NCBI RefSeq assembly: GCF_023017165.1
Contig: NZ_JALKBW010000001.1
Span: forward strand, 2,542,001 to 2,606,000
Source of the DNA: Gordonia alkaliphila
GTDB taxonomy: Bacteria > Actinomycetota > Actinomycetes > Mycobacteriales > Mycobacteriaceae
DNA length: 64,000 nucleotides
Reading direction: 5' to 3'
Shown here piece by piece: positions 15,789-59,457 of the stretch (its first letter is position 1; every line of letters begins with the position of its first letter). The notes beneath the pieces are model-generated. The model ran no database searches, had not been told where the DNA came from, and saw only the letters and a list, made by a program, of their open reading frames with translations. A program made the position numbers and the translations under genes.

Positions 15789-17516
15789 TCAGTACACGCA
15801 GACCGGGCCGTCGGTGTCGGCCTTGATCGCCGTCGGAGCCTTGGCGGTGGATCCCGGCGCGGCCGGCGAGTTGCCGTCGGCGGCGTTGTCGCCCTGCGGG
15901 CCGGTGTTCCAGATGGCGCCGAGACCGGTGTAGGTGTTGGTGAGCACCGCGCGGACGCGGTCGTCGGGCAGCGAGGAGTCCTCGCGGATCTCGATGTTTC
16001 CGCCGAGATCCCGGGCGAGCTGGCGGGCGCCGTCGTTGTCGGTGGAGTTCGCGAAGATGATCGAGTCGAACTCGTTCATCGGCTTGCTCGACGTCTCGCC
16101 CTCCTTGTAGCCCTTGGCGGTCAGCAGCCCGGCGACGTTGGCGGCCAGACCGTCGACGGTGCCGGCGTTCACCACGTCCACGGTGATCCCGGCGCGGCCG
16201 CCGGACTCGCCCTGGGCGGCGGTGCCGAGCTGACGATCGACGAACGTCTTGACCTGTGCGGGATCCACCTCGACGACGCTCTGCGTGCCGTCGTCGCTCC
16301 ACCCGTGATCGGTGATCACCGGGATGGTGGTGAATTTGACGTCGCCGCCGCTGAGATCCTTGAGCGAGTTCGCGAGGTTCAGGATGTCCCAGCCGTCGTC
16401 GATCGCCACCGACCGCGCCACGGCGGTCTCGAGCTCGCCCAACTTGGCCGGGTTGGTGAGGGTCTGGGTCGACAGGATGCGCTGCGCGAGGGAGGCCATG
16501 TACACCTGCTGGCGGGTGATGCGGTCGAGGTCGCCGCGCGGCAGATCGTGACGCTGGCGCACGAAGCTGAGCGCCTTGGGGCCGTTGAGGGTCTGTCGTC
16601 CGGCGCGGAAGCGGGCGCCGGACAGCGGCTCGCGGACCGCCTGCTTGAGGCAGACCTCGACGCCGCCGACGGCGTCGGTGAGCAGCGCGAAGCCGAGCAG
16701 ACCCACCTCCGCGTAGTGGTCGACGGTGACGCCGGTGAGGTTCGCGACCGAATCGATCAGCGCCTTGCGGCCGGCTTTGATGCCCTCGTTCTCGGCGGTC
16801 TTCTCGTCGGTCCCCGACTCGACGGCGGTACGACGCACCGTCTCGCGGGTGGAGCCGTAGGCCGCGTTGATCTTGCTCATGCCGATGCCGGGGACCTCGA
16901 CGTAGGAGTCGCGGGGGATGGAGACGGCGGTCGCGGTGCTGCCGTCGTTGGGGATGCGGATCAGCAGGATCGTGTCCGTGGAGGTGGTGATCTCGTCGCC
17001 CACCCGCAGCCACTTGAGCTCCTCGTCGCTGAGCGGGTTGCCCTTGGCGTCGAGGCGGGAGTCGGTGCCGACCAGCAGGATGTCCATCGCGCCGTCGGCG
17101 CCGCCGCCGAGTCCGAGGCCGCCGACCAACGTCACCGACGAGTTGAGGCTGGAGATCCGGCTCCAGCCGTATCCGGTGACGACGAGGACCACCACGGTCA
17201 GCAACGCGACCAGGCCGCGGCCGAAGGGCAGCAGCTCGTGGATGGTGCGGCGGGGTCGCGGCGGCGGAGGCTTGCGCGGTCCGGTCTTGGTGGTGGCCGC
17301 GGCACGACGCGGCCGGGTGTGGATCTCCTCCGAGGAGGTGCGCTGGCGTGTCGAGCGGGCCCGCGTGGAGACCGGAGTGGCCTTGCCCGAGCTGCGGGCG
17401 GCCTCCTCGGCGGCCCGCATCGGAGGCGTGCGGCGTCCGCGACGTTCCGGCTCGCCGCCGCCGGACGATGCCCGGCCGCCGGCGCGTCGGTCTCGACCTT
17501 CGCGGCGTGGTTCCAC
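15789..17516 (-). CDS. LytR-CpsA-Psr ligase with LytR_C domain
   Basis: Membrane-anchored phosphotransferase that in Mycobacteriales attaches arabinogalactan to peptidoglycan. The 575 residues form an Arg/Pro-rich cytoplasmic tail (1-95), one helix (about 103-120), and the LCP domain (140-300) with DILLVGTDSR, DTILLIRIP, SIPRDSYV and FVRQRHDLPRGDLDRI, whose Arg/Asp residues bind pyrophosphate. A LytR_C domain (about 415-530) follows. The start is GTG 17516; a TAGGGT box lies ~40 nt upstream in the untranslated leader. It neighbours rmlD/wbbL, which make the rhamnose linker, matching its role. Confidence 0.93.
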   Translation of the reverse strand: MEPRREGRDRRAGGRASSGGGEPERRGRRTPPMRAAEEAARSSGKATPVSTRARSTRQRTSSEEIHTRPRRAAATTKTGPRKPPPPRPRRTIHELLPFGRGLVALLTVVVLVVTGYGWSRISSLNSSVTLVGGLGLGGGADGAMDILLVGTDSRLDAKGNPLSDEELKWLRVGDEITTSTDTILLIRIPNDGSTATAVSIPRDSYVEVPGIGMSKINAAYGSTRETVRRTAVESGTDEKTAENEGIKAGRKALIDSVANLTGVTVDHYAEVGLLGFALLTDAVGGVEVCLKQAVREPLSGARFRAGRQTLNGPKALSFVRQRHDLPRGDLDRITRQQVYMASLAQRILSTQTLTNPAKLGELETAVARSVAIDDGWDILNLANSLKDLSGGDVKFTTIPVITDHGWSDDGTQSVVEVDPAQVKTFVDRQLGTAAQGESGGRAGITVDVVNAGTVDGLAANVAGLLTAKGYKEGETSSKPMNEFDSIIFANSTDNDGARQLARDLGGNIEIREDSSLPDDRVRAVLTNTYTGLGAIWNTGPQGDNAADGNSPAAPGSTAKAPTAIKADTDGPVCVY

Positions 17517-49190: not shown

Positions 49191-49213
49191 TTGTCGGTAC
49201 TCGCTCATACGAT
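49191..49213 (+). promoter_or_regulatory. PafBC-type (RecA-independent) DNA-damage promoter of the SbcD/SbcC-like operon
   Basis: TTGTCGGTA, 8 nt, then TACGAT match the mycobacterial RecA-independent damage motif (TTGTCRgtg-N8-TAnnnT), with one difference at the last position of the first block. The expected transcript start is near 49220, 33 nt before ATG 49253. Confidence 0.75.
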
Positions 49214-53405: not shown

Positions 53406-54880
53406 GGTGAGTCCCCTGGAGTGGTGGGGTTTGGTGGCTCGCTGAGGGCGGTGGACACGCCGGAGAGCTTGGTGTCGCCGTTGGGGTGGGCCATCGCGTG
53501 ATGATCAGTGAGTTACCTCACAAGTGACTCAACTGAAAGGCAATCACGCGATGACCCACGACCATTCTGCCCTGCTCGAGCAACTGACTGAACTCGGCAC
53601 ACTCCGATCCGACGAACTCGGTCTTGCCGGAGTGCTCCCGGAGATCCTGCGGGCCGGCTTGCAGGCCCTGATCGAGGCCGAGGCGACAGCGGCGATCGGC
53701 GCCGGCCGTTACGAGCGCTCGGCGGACCGAACGACGGTCCGAAACGGGCATCGACCCAAGACGATCTCAACGCCGGCCGGTGATGTGCGGGTGAAGATTC
53801 CCAAGCTGCGGGCTGGGTCGTTCTTCCCGGTCCTGCTGGAACGACGCCGCCGGATCGACAAGGCCCTCTACGCGGTGATCATGGAGGCCTATGTGCAGGG
53901 TATCTCGACCCGCAGTGTCGACGATCTGGTGCGGGCCATGGGCGTGGACTCCGGTGTCTCCAAGAGTGAGGTATCCCGGATCTGTGCAGGTCTCGACGCT
54001 GAGATCGCCGAGTTCCGGGAGCGTTCACTGACCCACACCGAGTTCCCGTATGTGTTCTGTGACGCCACGTTCTGCAAGGTCCGTGTCGGCGCGCACGTGG
54101 TCTCCCAGGCGCTGGTAGTGGCTACCGGTGTGTCGATCACCGGGACCCGCGAGGTCCTGGGTACCGCTGTCGGGCAGAGCGAATCGTACGAGTTCTGGCG
54201 CGAGTTCCTGGCAAGCCTGAAGGCCCGTGGGCTGCACGGGGTGCATCTGGTCATCTCTGACGCCCATGCAGGATTGAAAACCGCTGTGGCACAACAGTTT
54301 ACGGGTGCCACGTGGCAACGGTGCCGCGTCCATTTCATGAGGAACCTGCACGGAGCGGTCGCGGCGAAACAGCAGCCCGTCGTTACCGCCGGAGTGCGGA
54401 CTATCTTCGCTCACACCGAAGCGAAAGATGTTGCCGCGCAATGGGATCAAGTCGCCAACACCTTCGACGGGCCGTTCCCCAAGGCGGCAGCGATGATGCG
54501 GGACGCGAAAACCGACGTGCTGGCATTCTCAGCGTTCCCGAAGCCGCACTGGCAGAAAATCTGGTCGAACAACCCGATCGAGCGACTGAACAAGGAAATC
54601 AAACGACGCGCCGACGTCGTGGAGATCTTCCCGAACCCCGCCGCGTTCCTCCGACTCGCGACCGCCGTCGTGATCGACGCACACGACGAATGGCAAGTCA
54701 CCCGCAGATACATGTCCGAGGTCTCCATGGACGAGCTACGCGAGGTCCTCGCCGAGAAGGACAAGGCCGCCGCACTCCTGGACGCGCAAGCCCAAATCGC
54801 ATAGCGTTCACAACGACTCGTTGATCAGAACGCGTGACTCTACGCCCGATCCGAAGTCCACCACCCCAAGGGGCACTATC
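53406..54880 (+). mobile_element. complete IS256-family insertion sequence
   Basis: A 1475-bp element coding a DDE transposase. Its ends are imperfect inverted repeats (left from 53406, right complement from 54880) that share CCCCT, GG and GTGGTGG blocks. The 9-bp direct repeat CCATGGTCG flanks it at 53397-53405 and 54881-54889, a normal target duplication for this family. Intact duplication suggests a recent insertion. Confidence 0.87.
53551..54804 (+). CDS. IS256-family transposase
   Basis: A mutator-type DDE transposase of 417 residues. VFCDATFCKVR holds the first Asp, VISDAHAGL the second, and NPIERLNKEIKRR the Glu and the family C/D-box; the WQRCRVHFMRNL motif is also present. ATG 53551 has AAAGG 10 nt upstream; GTG 53524 is an alternative. 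The frame is intact, so the element may be active. Confidence 0.95.
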   Translation: MTHDHSALLEQLTELGTLRSDELGLAGVLPEILRAGLQALIEAEATAAIGAGRYERSADRTTVRNGHRPKTISTPAGDVRVKIPKLRAGSFFPVLLERRRRIDKALYAVIMEAYVQGISTRSVDDLVRAMGVDSGVSKSEVSRICAGLDAEIAEFRERSLTHTEFPYVFCDATFCKVRVGAHVVSQALVVATGVSITGTREVLGTAVGQSESYEFWREFLASLKARGLHGVHLVISDAHAGLKTAVAQQFTGATWQRCRVHFMRNLHGAVAAKQQPVVTAGVRTIFAHTEAKDVAAQWDQVANTFDGPFPKAAAMMRDAKTDVLAFSAFPKPHWQKIWSNNPIERLNKEIKRRADVVEIFPNPAAFLRLATAVVIDAHDEWQVTRRYMSEVSMDELREVLAEKDKAAALLDAQAQIA

Positions 54881-56886: not shown

Positions 56887-57525
56887 ATGGCGGCGGCGAT
56901 GACCACACTCGATGACGACCGATACGCCCGCGCGGCGGAGCTCCTGCGCGAGCGCGCCGCATGCGGCGCAGGCGACGAGCACTGCGACCGCCTGCGGGCC
57001 CGGGCGATCGTGCTGTGTCTCCCGCTCGCCGAGCACATCGCGTGCCGCTACAGCGGCCGCGGGGAGCCTTTCGATGACCTGCTTCAGGTGGCGCGCGTCG
57101 GCGTCATCCAGGCCGTCGACCGCTTCGATCCCGCCGCGGGCGCGGACCTGCTGTCGTTCGCCGTCCCCACCGTGATGGGCGAAGTGCGGCGGCACTTCCG
57201 GGACCGGGTGCCGACCATCCGGGTGCCCCGACGATTGCGGGAGCAGGGTGAGTTGGTGACGGTCGTGTCCCTGGATGCCGCCCGCCCGGACGGGTTCGGC
57301 GCACCGGACCCCGGCTACCGGGCGGTTGACGACCGATTGGCTCTGGCCCCGGCACTCCGGGTGCTGGCGTCGACGGACCGGCGCATCCTGCGTCTGCGAT
57401 TCCGCGACGAAAAGTCGCAGCGGGAGATCGCTGAGACCGTGGGCATCTCGCAGGTGCATGTCTCGCGGCGGTTGCGCACAACGCTTAATGCTCTGCGGTC
57501 GGAACTGAATCCCGCATTGTCGTGA
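56887..57525 (+). CDS. SigF/SigB-like sigma factor lacking region 3
   Basis: A 212-residue group 3 sigma factor. Region 2 matches SigF well (LPLAEHIACRYSGRGEPFDDL and FAVPTVMGEVRRHFRDRVPT, in outline), and region 4 is present (KSQREIAETVGISQVHVSRRL). Between VPRRLREQ and VVSLDAARPDG the ~55 residues of sigma region 3 are missing compared with ~260-residue SigF proteins. ATG 56887 or 56899 are both possible. No anti-sigma gene is adjacent. It could still work on promoters not needing region 3 contacts; regulation would differ from standard SigF. Confidence 0.85.
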   Translation: MAAAMTTLDDDRYARAAELLRERAACGAGDEHCDRLRARAIVLCLPLAEHIACRYSGRGEPFDDLLQVARVGVIQAVDRFDPAAGADLLSFAVPTVMGEVRRHFRDRVPTIRVPRRLREQGELVTVVSLDAARPDGFGAPDPGYRAVDDRLALAPALRVLASTDRRILRLRFRDEKSQREIAETVGISQVHVSRRLRTTLNALRSELNPALS

Positions 57526-57583
57526 TGGTGCGGCGATAATATCGCGGAGCATTCTGTGCAGAAGCCGTAATCGGGTGCCATTT

Positions 57584-57606
57584 CTGTCGGCTCCTGGGTA
57601 TATAAT
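57584..57606 (+). promoter_or_regulatory. PafBC-type motif, copy 1
   Basis: CTGTCGGCT, 8 nt, then TATAAT. The TGTCR core and a perfect -10 are present; the first base differs from TTGTC. Confidence 0.5.
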
Positions 57607-57673
57607 ATGCCCTTACGTAATTCGTTGATTAAATCGAACTTGAGGCAAAATCAGCCGCCATCAAATACGGGAA

Positions 57674-57696
57674 TTGTCGGCACGGTGACGTACCGT
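57674..57696 (+). promoter_or_regulatory. PafBC-type motif, copy 2
   Basis: TTGTCGGCA, 8 nt, then TACCGT: full TTGTCR core and TAnnnT at the right distance. Confidence 0.6.
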
Positions 57697-57765
57697 ATGG
57701 GTCGGAGTGATGGGGCTGTGAACAGGCGGAACGAGAGCGTCGATGTGTCGTTGTGCGGCACTAAA

Positions 57766-57788
57766 TTGTCCGAGGCGCGAGGTAGATT
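57766..57788 (+). promoter_or_regulatory. PafBC-type motif, copy 3
   Basis: TTGTCCGAG, 8 nt, then TAGATT; the purine at position 6 is C here. Copies 3 and 4 are also similar around the motif (21 of 26 bases). Confidence 0.55.
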
Positions 57789-57857
57789 ATGGCTATGTTA
57801 GGGCTGCGGAATGATTCTCTGGGAGTCGGAAAAATGACTTTCCTGGGGCGGAATGAA

Positions 57858-57880
57858 TTGTCGTAGGCGCGCGTTACATT
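57858..57880 (+). promoter_or_regulatory. PafBC-type motif, copy 4, nearest the HNH gene
   Basis: TTGTCGTAG, 8 nt, then TACATT. The expected start near 57887 leaves a short leader with AAGGAAGGAGG before GTG 57910, so this is the likely main promoter. Confidence 0.72.
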
Positions 57881-57909
57881 AATGCGAGAAAAGGAAGGAG
57901 GGGGTCGCT

Positions 57910-59457
57910 GTGAGCGGATTCGCGAGTAACGACGCCGGATTCGACGCCACCGGACTGCGGCGCATCCTCTCCGAACTCTCCGTCGCCCAATTGCTGGCGG
58001 TCCACGACGAAGCCGAGAAGCGGCTGGCGACCGCGAGCCTGTCGGGAGCGCTGTCCGGCCACGCGGAATCGGAACTGCTCGACGTATTGGAGCTGCGCGA
58101 GCAGACCCGTCGGCGGGGCGAGGTCTTCGACGCCGCGCTGTATCTGGAGGTCTCCGACCGCGACGTCGACTCGACCGCCGGATTCATGTCGGTCCACTCG
58201 CTGTACGCCCGTGGGGTCCGCCTCGGCGACGGCGAAGCCCGTCGTCGCAAGGTCACCGCCACCGGCATTGCGCGGTTCACCGCGATGACCGGCGAGAAGC
58301 TCGAGCCTGCGCTGCCCGATACCGCCGCAGCGGTGGCCGACGGAGAGATCGGCGCCGAACACGTGTCGGTGATCGCGGAGGCGATGGATCGGCTGCCCAG
58401 CCGCATCGCGCCCGACGAGCGCGCCCAGGCCGAAACGATGCTGGCCGCGGCGGCCCGGGAACTGGATCCGGGTGCGCTGGTGACGGTCGGCAACCGCATC
58501 CTCGCCTGGCTCGACCCCGACGGCACGCTCACCGACGACCGCGAACGTCGCCGTCAACGCGGTTTCCACCTGCAGCCGCAGAACCGGCAGATGATGAGCA
58601 AGGTCCGGGCGCTGCTCACTCCGACGCTGCGTGCCAAGCTCGAAGTGGTGCTGCACCAGTGGGCGGCGGCAGGCATGAACAACCCCGACGACCCGGAATC
58701 CCCGCGCGGCGCCGCCGATCAGCCCGGCCTGGACCCCGCCGTATTGGCTGCCGCCGCGGCCCGGGACGACCGCACCATCGGTCAACGCCAACACGATGCG
58801 CTCGAGGCACTCTGCGAATGGGCGCTCGCGCTGGCCGGTCAGCCCGCGCCCGACCGCATCCCGTCGCAGGTGGTGGTGACGGTGACCGACGAGGATCTGG
58901 CCCGGCAGGCCGGGATCGCGTGGACCGCCACCGGCGCGCGCCTGCCGATCTCCGATCTGGTGAAGCTGGCCGCCGACGCCGTACCCCACCTCGCCGTGTT
59001 CTCCGCGGCCACCGGGCAGTGCCTGTACCTGGGGCGCGCCCGTCGGTTCGCGAGCCTGGCCCAACGCCTCGCGCTGTTCGCGCGCGACCGCGGCTGCACC
59101 GGGCCGGGCTGCTCGGTGCCGTTCGTTCGGACTGAGGCGCACCACATGCCCGACTGGTCCCGCGGCGGACTCACCGACATCGACCACCTCGGCGGCGCCT
59201 GCGGCCGTCATAACCGCAGTTCCGGCGACAAGTGGGGCCAGTGGGAGTCGGTCATCCTCGAACGCGGCGCCCGCGCCGGGCGCGTCGCGTGGCGCCCCGC
59301 CGGCCGCGGGGGCGCGTGGCAGGTCAACCCCGTGTTCCACCCCGAGCAGTTCGCGCCGCACCGGGCCCGCGCCAGCACCGACGACGATCACGCCGATTCG
59401 GTCGACCACAACGGCCACGAGGGCCACTCGAGCACCCCACACCACCCCGCCGCCTGA
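57910..59457 (+). CDS. DUF222 / HNH endonuclease domain protein (13E12 repeat family)
   Basis: A 515-residue protein. The N-terminal two thirds is the DUF222 region (ELSVAQLLAVHDEAEKRL, GEKLEPALPDTAAAVADGEI, in outline). The C-terminal HNH nuclease domain (about 390-450) has zinc-type Cys pairs (RGCTGPGC, GGACGRHN), and EAHHMPDW supplies the catalytic His. Such genes occur in many copies in Mycobacteriales and are damage-inducible in M. tuberculosis. The GTG start has a strong GGAAGGAGG site. The biological role is unsettled (selfish, repair or defence). Confidence 0.92.
   Translation: MSGFASNDAGFDATGLRRILSELSVAQLLAVHDEAEKRLATASLSGALSGHAESELLDVLELREQTRRRGEVFDAALYLEVSDRDVDSTAGFMSVHSLYARGVRLGDGEARRRKVTATGIARFTAMTGEKLEPALPDTAAAVADGEIGAEHVSVIAEAMDRLPSRIAPDERAQAETMLAAAARELDPGALVTVGNRILAWLDPDGTLTDDRERRRQRGFHLQPQNRQMMSKVRALLTPTLRAKLEVVLHQWAAAGMNNPDDPESPRGAADQPGLDPAVLAAAAARDDRTIGQRQHDALEALCEWALALAGQPAPDRIPSQVVVTVTDEDLARQAGIAWTATGARLPISDLVKLAADAVPHLAVFSAATGQCLYLGRARRFASLAQRLALFARDRGCTGPGCSVPFVRTEAHHMPDWSRGGLTDIDHLGGACGRHNRSSGDKWGQWESVILERGARAGRVAWRPAGRGGAWQVNPVFHPEQFAPHRARASTDDDHADSVDHNGHEGHSSTPHHPAA

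Follow-up and report, generated by a model that had tools for sequence, protein, structure and literature searches.

What are several copies of a DNA-damage promoter motif doing in front of a single gene, and how did they come to be there? The question is raised by a locus in the window, i.e., the whole stretch of 64,000 nucleotides of Gordonia alkaliphila DNA analysed here, in which a gene of the DUF222/HNH type follows a region with repeated motifs.

Serial motifs before the DUF222/HNH gene

The gene (57910..59457, + strand) lies in a genome of 3.85 Mb and encodes a protein with a DUF222 match (PF02720, E 1e-53), which we take to be of the 13E12-like type. Although the Pfam HNH model gave no match in this protein, the putative HNH-core residues C396, C401, H412 and C431 are invariant in an alignment of nine sequences, in which the window protein stands together with HNH proteins, some of them having Pfam HNH matches. 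The gene had been called DUF222/HNH in an earlier, sequence-only reading of this DNA, and this naming holds; the product would be an active nuclease. No solved relative was found by sequence at E ≤ 1, neither the window protein nor L272, a relative used for comparison below, had a match in a defence library (L355 had one at E 0.093), and a search of phage records returned one partial match. Genes of the DUF222/HNH type abound in Gordonia, with 24 matches in this genome. Upstream lies a SigF-like sigma-70 gene (56887..57525, + strand) with Sigma70_r2 and r4 matches, the stop codon of which directly precedes the array region; the general sigma-70 model scores above the cut-off, and the SigF and SigB/F/G subfamily models below it. 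Since its matches in other Gordonia span mostly the first 120-130 residues, the sigma gene is no help in dating the region. No Pfam region-3 match was seen in the sigma gene, and a Mutator-type transposase gene (53524-54804) is located ~3 kb upstream of the array.

We scanned the 384 bp before the gene and found five sites within one mismatch of TTGTCR-N11-TAnnnT, all on the strand of the gene; the opposite strand had none over the same 384 bp. Sites were scored with a matrix of 137 distinct sites from other genomes (the own genome left out), all preselected as close matches, and ranks refer to the 127,956 window positions scored with it. The proximal PafBC-type (RecA-independent damage) promoter motif, copy 4 (57858..57880, +; TTGTCGTAGGCGCGCGTTACATT), has an exact core, ranks first with 19.4 bits and stands 52 nt from the GTG start, ahead of which a purine run (57891..57904, +; AAGGAAGGAGGGGG) may act as a Shine-Dalgarno-like element. 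Copy 1 (57584..57606, +; CTGTCGGCTCCTGGGTATATAAT), with TATAAT at -10 and a single mismatch, a C at position 1, reaches 11.9 bits (rank 5), and copy 3 (57766..57788, +; TTGTCCGAGGCGCGAGGTAGATT), the mismatch of which is a C at R, reaches 11.8 bits (rank 6). Copy 2 (57674..57696, +; TTGTCGGCACGGTGACGTACCGT) has the other exact core, yet it scores 6.7 bits (rank 16). The fifth site (57745..57767, +; GTGTCGTTGTGCGGCACTAAATT; one mismatch, 9.7 bits, rank 10) lies in the gap before copy 3, sharing its last two bases with the first two of that copy, and may be a chance match.

The four sites that had been read at 57584, 57674, 57766 and 57858, with spacings of 90, 92 and 92 bp and a fixed 8-nt gap, are thus present as described. 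They are unequal in strength, the proximal one having 19.4 bits as compared with 6.7-11.9 bits for the upstream sites, and the site at 57745 had been missed. A weaker site with a 9-nt gap, proposed at 57517, was rejected, as it scores -8.9 bits (rank 1,408 of 127,956). Ranks 2 to 4 fall on 49191, 16036 and 21195. The unrelated sites at 16036 and 21195 score above every upstream copy, and copies 1 and 2 fit the extended consensus poorly; both findings count against reading the region as a series of PafBC-dependent promoters. The rank 2 site (49191..49213, +; exact core) is a single one before an SbcD/Mre11-like gene, in which a metallophosphoesterase model scores above the cut-off and the SbcD and Mre11 models below it.

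The published RecA-NDp / P1 consensus, which is used through PafBC, is tTGTCRgtg-8 nt-TannnT, with 'gtg' in lower case (PMC5656591). Of the motif claimed in the sequence-only reading, the core stood with at most one mismatch, and the 'gtg' part did not, as this extension is found at none of the array sites. With 'gtg' included, the mismatches number two at each of 57674, 57745, 57766 and 57858 and more than two at 57584. The training sites favour G at the first of these places, A or T at the second and G or C at the third.

The region is richer in A+T than its surroundings (52% G+C versus 70% in the window), and chance was assessed by 20,000 dinucleotide shuffles of the array region. One site arose in 1,327 of these, two in 37, three in 2 and four in none, and two exact sites were likewise never reached (0/20,000). 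If 57745, which breaks the regularity, is left aside, the P value for the evenness of the spacing among the four named sites is ~0.0003. A scan of the whole genome, as had been proposed, gave 20 exact matches, two of them in the array, and the backwards-read control gave 10, so that chance may account for half of the exact matches in the genome; a single match is therefore weak evidence, and it is the cluster that counts. In 57450-57960, neither a plain sigma-70 promoter (hexamer pair) nor a terminator was found, no LexA-like box (at most two mismatches) was seen before the window gene, and the structure of the leader RNA is not unusual (z -0.62). Short ORFs occur within the array at 57718, 57789 and 57834; the last (57834-57866) has 10 codons and an SD-like GGGAG and stops within the proximal promoter motif, so that transcripts started upstream would include it.

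The units of the window array are 50-57% alike, and likeness is clear only between copies 3 and 4, which are 81% identical over 26 nt. Of 1000 shuffles, 1 reached their Smith-Waterman score, and 10 did so once the motif had been masked. This bears out the similarity that had been noticed, and copy 3 is likely to be a weaker tandem duplicate of the proximal unit. Copies 1 and 2 had been said to share mainly the motif. By Smith-Waterman, this is so, no likeness beyond the motif being detected (362 of 1000 shuffles), although a weak in-register likeness was present with the motif masked (13 of 1000 shuffles).

Motif identity and control of related genes

Two adjacent WYL genes beside tatC, which are the two WYL matches of the genome, match solved PafBC chains with E values of 1.5e-79 and 2.3e-75; in the NCBIfam search, no model was found for the first of them. 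To judge from the chain matches, the genome encodes both PafB and PafC. Four of the 20 exact sites in the genome stand ahead of uvrA, imuA', the SbcD/Mre11-like gene and a DEDD exonuclease gene, and those outside the array and these four carry no assignment of this sort. As far as the part of PMC5656591 drawn on here describes the RecA-NDp / P1 promoter, the window array resembles it in the TTGTCR core, the 8-nt gap and TAnnnT, as well as in its direction toward the gene, its nearness to the start codon and the presence of encoded PafB and PafC; it differs in being without 'gtg' and in having four to five serial sites rather than one.

Among 68 named loci encoding relatives of the window gene, the best 21 are from Gordonia, and the rest are mainly from Rhodococcus, Williamsia and Nocardia, plus some from Gordonia. 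The upstream regions of related genes (-210 to +63) were compared, as had also been suggested, using the 126 of 129 regions left after removal of short or identical ones, with 4 of the 24 DUF222 loci of the own genome included. Forward sites scoring 12 bits or more were present in 75 of the 126 distinct regions, a count that is favoured by these regions being partly in the matrix training set; a reverse site was present in 5/126 and two sites in none (0/126). A LexA-like box occurred in 36/126 regions and together with a PafBC-type site in 10/126. When 140 related loci were scanned from -600 to +60, more than one site (at most one mismatch) was found at the window gene and at one other locus only, the latter being counted twice (L045 and L200); a further 12 of 152 loci (L005-L014, L023 and L024) were without a match and stand outside the 140. 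A single site is thus common before the starts of relatives and tandem sites are rare, in agreement with the earlier statement that such promoters are usually single.

Two genomes have many relatives of the window gene. In G018 (L143-L159; 17 of 18 matches fetched), the part common to all copies starts at about the PafBC motif, with subsets sharing more upstream sequence, and in G048 (L163-L176; 14 of 16 matches fetched), the shared part starts at about a LexA-like box in 13 of 14. It looks as if the relatives in these genomes had spread carrying their own damage switch. In L143-L159, motif positions 9-11 (after TGTCRnA) read GGG, CCC, GGC, GCC and others, with the neighbouring bases nearly fixed. 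Before three close paralogs in the own genome, no PafBC-type site was found; one has a LexA-like box with one mismatch, one has a box with two mismatches, and one has neither. PafBC control is therefore not required for the DUF222/HNH family, and damage control in its members tends to come from one of the two systems, PafBC or LexA.

Arrays in other Gordonia genomes

We surveyed 59 Gordonia genomes for tandem pairs of TGTC-N12-TAnnnT, using backwards-read sequences as the control. There was no excess at spacings of 23-75 bp (13 pairs versus 13 in the control), and pairs outnumbered the control at 76-106 (45 versus 5) and at 107-167 (33 versus 9), giving 91 versus 27 for the three ranges together. 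Because one array may yield several pairs, loci were counted in place of pairs. The pairs make up 53 loci, 34 before DUF222/HNH-family genes and 19 before others. Among the 34 array-led genes, 28 were assigned by a Pfam match to DUF222 or HNH or by 71-89% identity to L272, including L274, which lies 0.1 bits below the HNH cut-off; the other six stop short of the HNH core, and over 170-240 residues these relatives share 39-46% identity with L272 (L361, L362 and L363 were compared under the labels L258, L266 and L311). All six, i.e., L275, L278 and L281 in G024 and L361, L362 and L363 in G054, end in ...CRHP-stop just before the HNH core, and this ending makes them a related protein that lacks the nuclease half, present in both genomes.

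The next ORFs of the other 19 loci had no DUF222 or HNH match. With 27 control pairs, these loci are no more than the chance controls, and they are not all independent, as DrrA-like ABC genes of a single kind follow four of them. Both sites reached at least 12 bits in 31 of the 34 DUF222/HNH-family loci as compared with 6 of the 19 others, the sites of G024 and G054 and of two further loci having belonged to the matrix training set. The window array is 0.2 bits short of this 12-bit pair bar and is among the weakest of the 34. L365 and L366, each with one good and one poor site, are probably not arrays. With a stricter core, 301 genomes of the host's family (30 in Gordonia) gave 20 pairs versus 0 in the control, all in three Gordonia and all before the DUF222/HNH gene family.

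Like the window array, those in G017, G024, G054 and G047 are serial sites before DUF222/HNH-family genes. There are eight sites before a DUF222/HNH gene in G017, two to six in G024 and G054, often as duplicated pairs, and two or three in G047. In the four arrays compared in detail and in L273, the units are ~80-93% alike; these four are tandem duplications with strong sites, whereas the window array is diverged and has one strong site. The proposed tandem duplication of a promoter unit is thus supported by the four other arrays and, in the window, by copies 3 and 4, with the other window pairs unclear, and the window array itself has the look of a tandem-duplicated promoter array that has diverged. 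Arrays from different gene groups match one another over just 18-26 nt, and the window array matches none of them; this scant likeness between gene groups suggests independent origins. When the window region 57500-57930 was searched in the 59 Gordonia genomes, all DNA matches besides itself were shorter than 40 nt, so that the array region is absent from the other Gordonia genomes covered. Between neighbouring sites the distance is 64 bp or more, 57745-57766 excepted, a figure that the search ranges help to shape and that would correspond to about one polymerase footprint.

Among the loci before other genes, L329 (G012), L334 (G041), L336 (G047) and L337 (G049) have a DrrA-like ABC transporter gene after two motif-like sites separated by 127-146 bp. 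Both score well in L336, and in the other three the first is poor. In L367 and L368, the two sites are good and are separated by ~140 bp, the genes that follow being an unassigned one and an AAA/OLD-like one, and L314 has a 29-bp motif pair at a uvrB-like gene.

Proposed serial promoters and rival explanations

We consider it reasonably probable that the DUF222/HNH gene is driven by a series of PafBC-dependent damage promoters that arose, at least in part, through duplication of a promoter unit. ssDNA-activated PafBC enables the sigma-A polymerase at such promoters (PMC11804915, in the part drawn on here). After DNA damage, activated PafBC would thus let the sigma-A RNA polymerase initiate strongly at 57858 and less strongly at the upstream sites, and since all sites face the gene and most are about one polymerase footprint apart, their transcripts would sum. 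The proximal site is likely to be active and is most likely the main PafBC-dependent damage promoter, and the chances that the upstream sites contribute to transcription are about even. In our leading view, the gene may encode a damage-induced nuclease, the dose of which would depend partly on how many serial promoters there are.

The strongest rival, though we find it rather unlikely, is that 57858 is the sole working promoter, the sites upstream of it being decayed duplicates or near-matches without a role. The large gap in score, the 50-57% likeness of the units and the single site in most relatives speak for it. On the other hand, the upstream sites have retained their cores with no more than one mismatch in units that otherwise differ, and several strong sites have been kept in the other Gordonia arrays.

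That the sites are targets of the HNH protein itself, in autoregulation or self-cleavage, with duplication following from cutting and repair, would explain why duplicated PafBC-type sites exceed the controls only before the DUF222/HNH family; with the same motif standing ahead of uvrA, imuA' and exonuclease genes, and having the direction of a promoter, we regard this as very improbable. Recognition of the P1 motif by ClgR has been reported (PMC5656591, in the part considered), which would allow another activator such as ClgR to use the sites, and plain sigma-A promoters might be considered as well. Both forms of this explanation appear highly improbable, since PafBC is described as working such promoters with the sigma-A polymerase (PMC11804915), pafB and pafC are both present, and 57450-57960 is devoid of a sigma-70-type hexamer pair. 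Chance production of the motif in an A+T-richer intergenic region, to which the difference in G+C would lend itself, is refuted for the cluster as a whole by the composition-matched shuffles and is next to negligible, although single weak members such as 57745 could be chance.

The serial PafBC reading may be set beside two known cases. Mycobacterial recA has dual damage promoters, P1 (PafBC) and P2 (LexA), and like the window gene has more than one damage-promoter motif before one gene; as presented in the portion of PMC5656591 used here, recA has one site per system, whereas the window gene has several of one system and no LexA-like box. In M. tuberculosis, five putative HNH endonuclease genes are under LexA/RecA control (PMC8151990, in the part considered). 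The window gene likewise encodes a putative HNH endonuclease with putative damage control, a likeness drawn at the HNH level, and differs from these genes in its serial PafBC-type sites. No report of serial PafBC promoter arrays was found among the literature titles and abstracts listed, which is weak evidence of absence.

More tentatively, and with the odds against it, Gordonia may repeatedly and independently build PafBC arrays of up to eight sites, in which the number of sites would set the induction of the nuclease. In a stronger form of this idea, cutting by the nuclease near its own promoter may drive the duplication. That arrays are built repeatedly before one family suggests a central part for strong or tunable damage induction in what DUF222/HNH genes do, and the Gordonia loci, ranging from 1 to 8 sites, form a natural series in which the combined effect of serial PafBC promoters could be followed.
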